Source of the DNA: Candidatus Cryptobacteroides caccocaballi
GTDB lineage: Bacteria > Bacteroidota > Bacteroidia > Bacteroidales > UBA932
Direction of reading: 5' to 3'
Length of the DNA: 43,044 nucleotides
Assembly (NCBI GenBank): GCA_018064725.1
Contig: JAGHUQ010000014.1
Location: 1-43,044 of the forward strand
In this document: in pieces, positions 24,831 through 34,257 of the stretch
Layout of the letters: each line of letters opens with the position of its first letter
How positions within the stretch are numbered: the stretch's first letter is position 1
Notes under the pieces: model-generated
The model's input: the letters and a program-made list of their open reading frames with translations, nothing else
What the model was told of the DNA's origin: nothing
Database searches by the model: none
Program-made: the position numbers and the translations under genes

Positions 24831-24945
24831 GTTCCAGTCATCGACGGTGACGAACCCGTGACCACTCTCGGTCTCGTAAGAGAGGCCCGGCGCAAGCCGG
24901 GAGGGATGAGCGGAGCGAAGGTTCGCAGCCGTCGATGACTGGAAC
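24831..24945. repeat. Structured extragenic repeat element, copy 1
   Basis: A 115-nt element closed by a perfect 17-bp inverted repeat (GTTCCAGTCATCGACGG at 24831-24847 with its complement at 24929-24945). After a 3x3 internal loop come six more pairs (CGAACC / GGTTCG). Inside are two small hairpins with GNRA-type loops, TCTC-GTAA-GAGA and CCCGGC-GCAA-GCCGGG, then AGGGATGAGCGGAGCGAAGG. A second element with the same layout but different stem sequence lies at 33303-33438. It starts 4 nt after the stop of the minus-strand serine hydrolase gene. It could be a REP-like dispersed palindrome or a structured RNA; the coding strand is uncertain. Confidence 0.65.
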
Positions 24946-32816: not shown

Positions 32817-33293
32817 ATGGCCAAGATAGAAAAGACAAATGCTGCCCGTCTTCTGGACAAGGCAGGCGTAGCATATGAGCTCGTTCCATACGAGGTTGAT
32901 GAGAACAATCTGGCAGCAGACCATGTAGCAGCTCAGCTTGGCGAGCCGCTCGAGCAGGTATTCAAGACGCTCGTACTTCAGGGCGACAAGACAGGTCACT
33001 TTGTGTGCGTCATTCCGGGCGGCGAAGAAATCAACCTGAAGAAGGCTGCGAAGATTTCAGGAAACAAGAAGTGTGACCTCATACACATGAAGGAATTGCT
33101 TCCTACGACCGGCTACATCAGAGGAGGTTGCTCCCCAATCGGAATGAAGAAGCCGTTCCCGACATATATTGAGGAAAGCGCACTGCTATACGACTATATA
33201 TATATTAGCGCGGGCGTGCGAGGGTTGCAATTCAAGATCAATCCTGAGGACCTCATCGCATTCGTTCCTGCAGAGCCATCCGATATCGTATAA
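32817..33293 (+). CDS. ybaK: Cys-tRNA(Pro) deacylase YbaK/EbsC
   Basis: A 158-residue trans-editing protein that removes Cys from mischarged tRNA-Pro. The family pattern is visible: KTNAARLLDKAGVAYELVPYEVDE at the start, VFKTLVLQGDKTGHFVCVIPGGEEINLKKAAK with the conserved Lys in FKTLV, then GGCSPIGMKKPFPTYIEE and the final beta strand RGLQFKINPEDLI. The length equals E. coli YbaK (159). It follows rsmD by 3 nt and is the last gene of this unit. The structured repeat copy 2 begins 10 nt after its stop. Confidence 0.93.
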   Translation: MAKIEKTNAARLLDKAGVAYELVPYEVDENNLAADHVAAQLGEPLEQVFKTLVLQGDKTGHFVCVIPGGEEINLKKAAKISGNKKCDLIHMKELLPTTGYIRGGCSPIGMKKPFPTYIEESALLYDYIYISAGVRGLQFKINPEDLIAFVPAEPSDIV

Positions 33294-33302
33294 TCTTCTT
33301 TT

Positions 33303-33438
33303 CGCCTATAAGGTTGGCAATAGCCGATCTGAGGGCGTGTCCACCCCCGGACACGGGGAGGGCCCAAGCATGCTTGGGAGGGGCCGACGAGGCGAAGCCG
33401 AGGAGTCCCGAAGACGGCTATGCGCAACCTGATAGGCG
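33303..33438. repeat. Structured extragenic repeat element, copy 2
   Basis: A 136-nt element closed by a 24-nt imperfect inverted repeat (33303-33326 with 33415-33438; 20 of 24 positions pair). Inside are hairpin GTGTCC-ACCCCC-GGACAC, whose C-rich loop could pair with the GGGG just downstream (33355-33358). Next come hairpin CCCAAG-CATG-CTTGGG and the core AGGGGCCGACGAGGCGAAGC. Order and core match copy 1 at 24831-24945, while stem sequences differ. It lies between the convergent ybaK and tpiA genes. No convincing coding sequence covers it; the 87-codon ORF across it is chance. Confidence 0.65.
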
Positions 33439-33501: not shown

Positions 33502-34257
33502 TTAGAATGCAACTGCGATACCGATGAAGTCATCTGCCTTAAGAGCAGCACCACCGATGAGGCCACCGTCGATATCAGGCATTGCGAAGAGCTCCTTAGC
33601 GTTAGAAGGCTTGCAAGAGCCACCATAGAGGATGGTAGTGTCATCAGCAACCTGTGCACCGAACATGTCAGCAAGCACCTTGCGGATGTATGCGTGGATC
33701 TCCTCAGCCTGCTCAGCAGTAGCGGTCTTACCGGTACCGATAGCCCAAACTGGCTCGTAAGCGATGACAACGTTCTTCATATCCTCAGCAGTGAAGTTCT
33801 TAAGAACATTAACGGTCTGAGCCTCGCAAACAGCGAAATGCTTCTCAGCCTCACGCTCCTCGAGATTCTCACCTACGCAAAGGATAACCTTGAGACCGGC
33901 AGCGAGAGCAAGCTTGGTCTTCTCAACGAGCTTCTCATCAGTCTCACCGTAGTACTGGCGACGCTCTGAGTGACCGAGGATGGTGTACTGGCAACCAACT
34001 GAGGTAAGCATGTCAACTGAAACCTCTCCGGTGTATGCACCCTTAGCCTTGTCTGCGCAGTTCTCTGCTGAAAGAGCAACGCGAGTACCCTTTACAACCT
34101 CATTTACAGGATAGAGGTGGGTGAAAGGAGTTGCGATGATAAGTTCTACGTCTGCAGGAACCTCTGCTGACTTTGCAACGACTGCTTTTGCGAGCTCTAC
34201 GCCCTCAGGAACTGTAGTGTTCATCTTCCAGTTACCTGCTACGATGTGTTTTCTCAT
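33502..34257 (-). CDS. tpiA: Triosephosphate isomerase
   Basis: A 251-residue TIM-barrel enzyme interconverting dihydroxyacetone phosphate and glyceraldehyde 3-phosphate in glycolysis. The N-terminal VAGNWKMN carries the catalytic Lys and Asn. His is in [15 protein letters not shown] (about residue 96), and the catalytic Glu and loop 6 are in [20 protein letters not shown] (about residue 168). The phosphate-binding end is [14 protein letters not shown] and [11 protein letters not shown]. Strong codon bias fits high expression. Promoter box at 34312-34319; the leader of about 50 nt contains a small hairpin (CTTGC-TTAG-GCAAG on the minus strand). Confidence 0.97.

Follow-up and report, generated by a model that had tools for sequence, protein, structure and literature searches.

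Palindromic repeats dispersed between genes are known from several systems. ERIC and MITE-like palindromes are imperfect palindromes of approximately 130 bp, which are located in intergenic regions in random orientation, and the ends of ERIC are conserved. The double-hairpin elements and GC clusters of mitochondria, found in other organisms, are mobile GC-rich hairpins whose stems carry compensating changes; to our knowledge, no pseudoknot has been described for them. REP/REPIN sequences are defined as hairpins of 20-65 nt with a GTAG/GTGG-type tetranucleotide at the 5′ foot (PMC6006769), while STAXI is a pseudoknot motif of bacteria that is arranged in tandem and tied to DNA-handling genes, and for which folding as ssDNA or as RNA has been debated (PMC2864571).

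The element studied here lies in a contig of 43,044 nt from Candidatus Cryptobacteroides caccocaballi, the whole of which was analyzed (the window). It belongs to a family of intergenic sequences of about 110-150 nt without any ORF, each comprising a core of about 80-100 nt. With the REP/REPIN sequences and their RAYT transposases the family shares short intergenic palindromes in many copies, which are non-autonomous, fold as single strands and lack an internal transposase. By contrast, its size, a pseudoknotted core, ends without conservation (the foot is a hypervariable arm) and the absence of copies beside the 31 Y1/RAYT loci examined do not agree with this class. Like MITE-like elements, it is multi-copy and intergenic, devoid of an ORF and present or absent at orthologous sites, but it reveals neither a target-site duplication nor conserved terminal inverted repeats common to an autonomous element. 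The size range, intergenic location, palindromic character and random orientation are in common with ERIC, from which the element is separated by its hypervariable arms and its conserved, covarying pseudoknot. A pseudoknot also exists in STAXI, though the element occurs singly at scattered sites and has long arms as a cap. Compensating stem changes are shared with the mitochondrial hairpins, the pseudoknot being the difference.

The element on which the analysis was focused (copy 2) reads as a 136-nt palindrome that encloses a complex interior (Table 1). Its arms comprise 24 nt each, of which approximately 20 positions are paired, and are 83% identical when compared with each other by BLAST. 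Inside the arms, the segment 33328-33335 pairs with 33407-33414 by TCT/AGA, a tandem G-A and GGG/CCC, leaving the A at 33327 bulged. The motif CGAAG comes after GAGGAG downstream of hairpin C. Fold z-scores of -5.1 and -9.1 were determined for copy 2 and the other copy of the window (copy 1), respectively, and none of 200 shuffled sequences was equally stable.

Table 1. Features of the two window copies and the genes adjacent to copy 2 (positions in the window).
Feature	Position	Strand	Remark
Whole element, copy 2 (rare subtype)	33303..33438	core strand +	boundaries are the inverted-repeat ends
Left arm CGCCTATAAGGTTGGCAATAGCCG	33303..33326	+	pairs with 33415-33438
TCT-GA-GGG, subtype-specific	33328..33335	+	read from the sequence; motif also in the C111 and C28 copies
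Hairpin A, stem CGTGTCC/GGACACG, inner GTCC/GGAC	33336..33355	+	stem covaries family-wide
Hairpin A loop ACCCCC	33343-33348	+	
Pseudoknot, loop CCCC 33345-33348 with GGGG 33355-33358	33345..33358	+	sequence here, covariation in the family
Conserved GGGAGGG	33356..33362	+	
Hairpin B CCCAAGCATGCTTGGG	33363..33378	+	hypervariable, always pairs
AGGGG CCGACGA, hairpin C, GAGGAGT	33379..33406	+	
Hairpin C GGC-GAA-GCC	33391-33399	+	
CCC-GA-AGA	33407..33414	+	partner of 33328-33335
Right arm CGGCTATGCGCAACCTGATAGGCG	33415..33438	+	pairs with left arm
Upstream neighbour gene, YbaK-like aminoacyl-tRNA editing domain (PF04073)	32817..33293	+	convergent, outside element
Neighbour gene, triosephosphate isomerase (TIM, PF00121)	33502..34257	-	convergent, outside element
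Copy 1 (common subtype)	24831..24945	+	arms 24831-24847 / 24929-24945, core 24849-24927

According to the original prediction, copy 2 is a second element with the architecture of copy 1, both being located between convergent genes. Indeed, the order of the parts is identical in 24831-24945 and 33303-33438, and the neighbours of both copies were confirmed by Pfam domains, those of copy 1 belonging to the acetyl-CoA hydrolase family and to the PF00144 serine hydrolases. A chance likeness of GC-rich hairpins was checked and could be excluded, because a covariance model (R1) built from four common-subtype copies (copy 1, two more of the same genome and one of a related genome), and hence without copy 2 in its training, still recovered 33328-33404 with a score of 32 bits, for which E=2.9e-7 when the window and 1.5e-5 when the entire genome was searched. 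The two window copies thus represent one family but differ in subtype, copy 1 being of the common and copy 2 of the rare type. The latter is characterized by an extra TCTGAGGG ... CCCGAAGA layer inside the arms and was found in only three copies. The rare-subtype copies C111 and C28 of genome G000 have near-identical cores but wholly different arms, and both carry a long insert in hairpin B (GGATACAAGTT ... GACGCAGGAGAC). Since a close variant of this insert is present in common-subtype copies of another species (G016), the subtypes swap parts. A longer conserved module, GGATACAAGTT-[hairpin]-GACGNAGNAGAC, often takes the place of hairpin B (L003, L012, L161, L167 and L171-L187); this module occurs in both subtypes and several species and may constitute a second structured motif. 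Across the whole window no covariance model of Rfam 15 matched at its gathering score, and with relaxed E-values the best match of six element loci (E=1.2) was to unrelated families. A description of the family was also not found in the open-licence literature. It is an undescribed, abundant and dispersed intergenic palindrome, whose distinctive property is a pseudoknotted core within hypervariable, self-correcting arms.

Two copies within 43 kb had been taken as a hint that many more exist in the genome. The R1 search bore this out, as at least 12 copies were detected in this genome at E<0.001 (at least 23 at E<1), and up to at least 40 in its relatives. Within the genus, 62 of 73 genomes were positive, with at least 34 copies in G016 and at least 32-40 in each of G023, G047 and G048. 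Beyond the genus, several copies were present in four of approximately 390 genomes of the order, one belonging to the same family and three to other families, and none of 395 other genomes across the phylum was positive at the threshold used for the order. The hosts are gut and rumen Bacteroidales with tens of copies per genome. The patchy spread fits horizontal transfer. All genomes compared are drafts, nearly all of them metagenome-assembled, and some contigs break at elements (e.g., L258). Two subfamilies were observed besides. In about 15 copies of G016 (L172-L187) the long arms are conserved (gcggcggg..tcctctggtctcggc / gccgagaccacgaggattcccgccgc), which sets them apart from the other members of the family and suggests a recent burst. 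The copy L307 of genome G198, which belongs to a different genus of the same family, shares its arms and the outer flank GTCGGCTG... CAGCCGACCGCATCTGCGG with L114 and L116 of G000. As arms and outer flank are common across genera, the arms moved along with the core in this subfamily.

The anatomy of the family consists of long perfect arms, hairpin A, hairpin B, GGGAGGG and the small hairpin C. The loop of hairpin A is made up of one purine and, after it, five bases complementary to the five directly before AGGGG. A pseudoknot between the C-rich loop and a downstream GGGG had already been suspected for copy 2; it is formed there by CCCC/GGGG and covaries family-wide, copy 1 having CTCTC/GAGAG and other variants being CCCTC/GAGGG, CCCGT/ACGGG, CCCGC/GCGGG, CCCAT/ATGGG and CCCAC/GTGGG. 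Thus, a hairpin loop pairs downstream outside its own stem with covariation, as in H-type pseudoknots. In a set of 53 distinct sequences chosen without using the variable pairs of the pseudoknot, 97.4% of the cells were paired, and the covariation score amounted to 0.506 compared to 0.149 for shuffled sequences and at most 0.153 for slid registers. On a tree of 126 cores from which the variable pseudoknot columns had been removed, one side of the pseudoknot requires at least 13 changes and the other side at least 15, and the states match. Supported branches account for only three contrasts per tested pair, so the number of independent covariation events is modest, though all of these contrasts agreed. 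The expectation of a covarying multi-copy family was confirmed, with covariation in the stem of hairpin A and in the pseudoknot.

The pseudoknot has a loop of 1 nt over a stem of 5 bp and a loop of 6 nt over a stem of 4 bp, a geometry that corresponds to a classical RNA pseudoknot type. Among the core pairs, 72 G-T stood against 24 A-C, and among the arm pairs 95 against 56, in both cases counted over related sequences that are not phylogenetically independent. Since a double-stranded mutational process gives no asymmetry between G-T and A-C, it is probably the single strand in core sense that folds. Taken together with the conservation of the core, the crossing pseudoknot and the G-T bias point to a folded single strand.

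The arms, typically 20-36 bp long, behave differently. When the two arms of one copy were compared in 142 copies, they matched each other with a median score of 34, compared to 12 for mismatched pairs. In 32 pairs of same-genome copies whose cores are at least 93% identical, the arm identity was 0.60 versus 0.56 for unrelated flanks; three of the pairs even have core interiors that are 100% identical (e.g., L157/L159 and L165/L168). The possibility that the arms are captured or guide sequences was rejected for the parts searched (about one sixth of G023 and G047, a smaller share of G048), in which the arms of the copies of these genomes gave no long own-genome matches above the weak level of control flanks.

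For the comparison of orthologous sites, 39 pairs from two groups of related genomes were used, and pairs with flanks matching other copies were left out. Median core identities of 0.92 (G023/G047) and 0.95 (G003/G064) were obtained, whereas those of the arms were 0.72 and 0.77 and the flanks were 88.5% and 90% identical, respectively. The core is therefore better conserved than the arms and, as a rule, at least as well conserved as the mostly coding flanks, at many sites even better. At the site L339/L354 of G064/G003, five arm positions differ and all five partners have changed, too. Furthermore, the core was inverted between the arms in nine of the 39 pairs, although some inversions may be artefacts, since short-read assembly through inverted repeats of 25 bp can flip a core of 80 bp. 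About nine clean empty sites without arm or core were found, for instance in G023, where two convergent stop codons lie few bases apart at a site that is occupied by a full element in G047. The empty sites showed no target-site duplication. Arms and core are gained or lost as a single unit; partial remnants also occur, namely a core deletion that left the arms intact, a palindrome without a core, and a deletion bounded by GAGGGT repeats.

Changed but complementary stems had originally been regarded as a sign of selection on structure. In this form the argument is not supported by the arms, which outpace the flanks by compensating pairs around a core flipped in nine of 39 cases. When inverted repeats undergo template switching, their arms are known to become homogenised, multi-base compensatory changes arise and the spacer is inverted, all without selection (PMC8794818; PMC8604942). 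Both hallmarks, fast compensated turnover of the arms and inversion of the spacer, were observed here. Thus, compensated arm changes alone do not prove selection, for which the core conservation, the crossing pseudoknot and the asymmetry of G-T over A-C are better arguments. One might go further and regard the elements as neutral by-products, that is, inverted repeats generated by template switching that have neither function nor real mobility and whose cores resemble each other by descent and gene conversion. While the homogenised arms and inverted spacers are covered by this explanation (PMC8794818; PMC8604942), it does not tell why the core is more conserved than the arms and approaches the level of coding flanks, why the crossing pseudoknot covaries and the strands are asymmetric, or why empty sites and a patchy presence in other families exist. 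It is therefore disfavoured and considered very improbable.

The genomic context was evaluated with crude ORF calls. Relative to co-directional genes, the core lay on the same strand in 21 and on the opposite strand in 19 cases, and there was no replication-strand bias (16 versus 23, p=0.34). Convergent contexts were found for 31 of 82 elements compared to 30 of 147 background gaps. This surplus would be in line with a structured RNA or 3′-UTR element that is beneficial to the host, in which arms and pseudoknot might protect or terminate the message, selection would keep the copies and dispersal would be secondary. Cores conserved at fixed sites, a pseudoknot geometry suiting A-form RNA and the bias of G-T over A-C match this idea as well. 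On the other hand, the core strand is random with regard to co-directional genes and flips at orthologous sites, some copies adjoin start codons (e.g., before tpiA in L035), and in the window copies no T-tract follows the arm. Due to the random orientation, the lack of a replication-strand bias, the empty sites and the patchiness, a mobile palindrome fits better than a cis-acting 3′-UTR element, so that a role primarily as host RNA appears somewhat unlikely.

If the family is mobile, a RAYT transposase is an obvious candidate, and a linked RAYT/TnpA-REP gene or an autonomous element sharing the ends had been proposed as partners. Genes for Y1 transposases (PF01797, RAYT-like) were detected in 15 of 16 tested carriers of the same genus, compared to two of six genomes of the genus in which no copy was detected (Fisher p=0.009, the genomes not being phylogenetically independent). 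This correlation would suit a true REP of the genus's own RAYT/Y1 system with an odd hairpin. However, none of 31 Y1 loci had an element within approximately 1.5 kb, so the proposed link is not shown, and no Y1 hit was obtained in the four carrier genomes outside the genus. In addition, no GTAG/GTGG foot was seen in the element, which at 100-150 nt is five times as long as REPs of 20-40 nt, and a RAYT-like Y1 gene of G000 (C42; L019:1171-2480) has several short hairpin repeats of the type CTATCTAGGGATGTTTT...AAAACGCCACGAGATAG on its flanks, which seem to be a separate REP-like family belonging to this gene. For these reasons, membership in that system is rather improbable. In favour of this lead, atypical secondary structures are reported on the flanks of Bacteroidetes RAYTs of subclass 2.6 (PMC6006769). 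An autonomous partner element with shared ends was not found; the ends differ between copies.

Some other repeats came to light in these searches. A terminator-like hairpin, CTATACGGACGGCTCCCC...GGGGAGCCGTCC, is repeated near a Y1 gene (L020:760-850) and near the C111 element (L003:1290-1370), with similar surroundings at both sites. The exact pattern GAGGGAGGGGCCC-N-GGGAGGG occurs in 69 viral contigs, some of which harbor copies every 1-2 kb, but these matches were rejected as a different repeat, since they reached at most 28 bits with the model and the one contig that was read (L380) has intergenic palindromes of its own. In the IMG/VR contigs L380, L396, L369 and L371, intergenic palindromes rich in GC (GGGAGGGGCCC / GGGAGAGGG types) recur every 1-2 kb and look like another intergenic repeat family with a superficial resemblance; L380 encodes a GTA-like capsid gene cluster. 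Phage and plasmid records searched by blastn gave no match to the element.

The reading we prefer, with a probability of roughly 0.55, is that the element is a copy of a non-autonomous dispersed palindromic repeat which works like REPIN, ERIC or MITE and in which only the core of about 80-100 nt is conserved. Single-stranded in one orientation, this core would fold into the H-type pseudoknot, hairpin B and the small hairpin C, with two arms of 20-36 nt clamping the folded structure. The copies might spread in trans by a candidate enzyme, which would have to recognise the folded core since the ends have no conserved sequence. Template switching during replication would then copy one arm onto the other, thereby keeping them complementary and flipping the core. 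Resident copies would subsequently be retained, the core serving the element or the host in some way that does not depend on orientation; that they are kept is suggested by the core, which varies less than the arms and in most cases does not exceed the coding flanks in variation. Such conservation in resident copies is unusual for a purely parasitic repeat. It is also conceivable, but unlikely, that the family represents a mobile class defined by nothing but its pseudoknotted core, with unconserved ends, a putative enzyme that reads the three-dimensional fold of single-stranded RNA or DNA, arms rewritten during or after the move, and a core that flips.

The mobile, non-autonomous repeat preferred here adds an abundant, undescribed family to the uncultured Bacteroidales of gut and rumen. 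It provides a natural system that allows selection on a fold (core), palindrome repair by template switching (arms) and mobility (empty sites) to be told apart. Moreover, it is a warning for covariation analyses, as the arms can acquire dozens of perfect compensating changes in the absence of selection. A cognate enzyme, if found, would recognise a pseudoknot rather than conserved ends.
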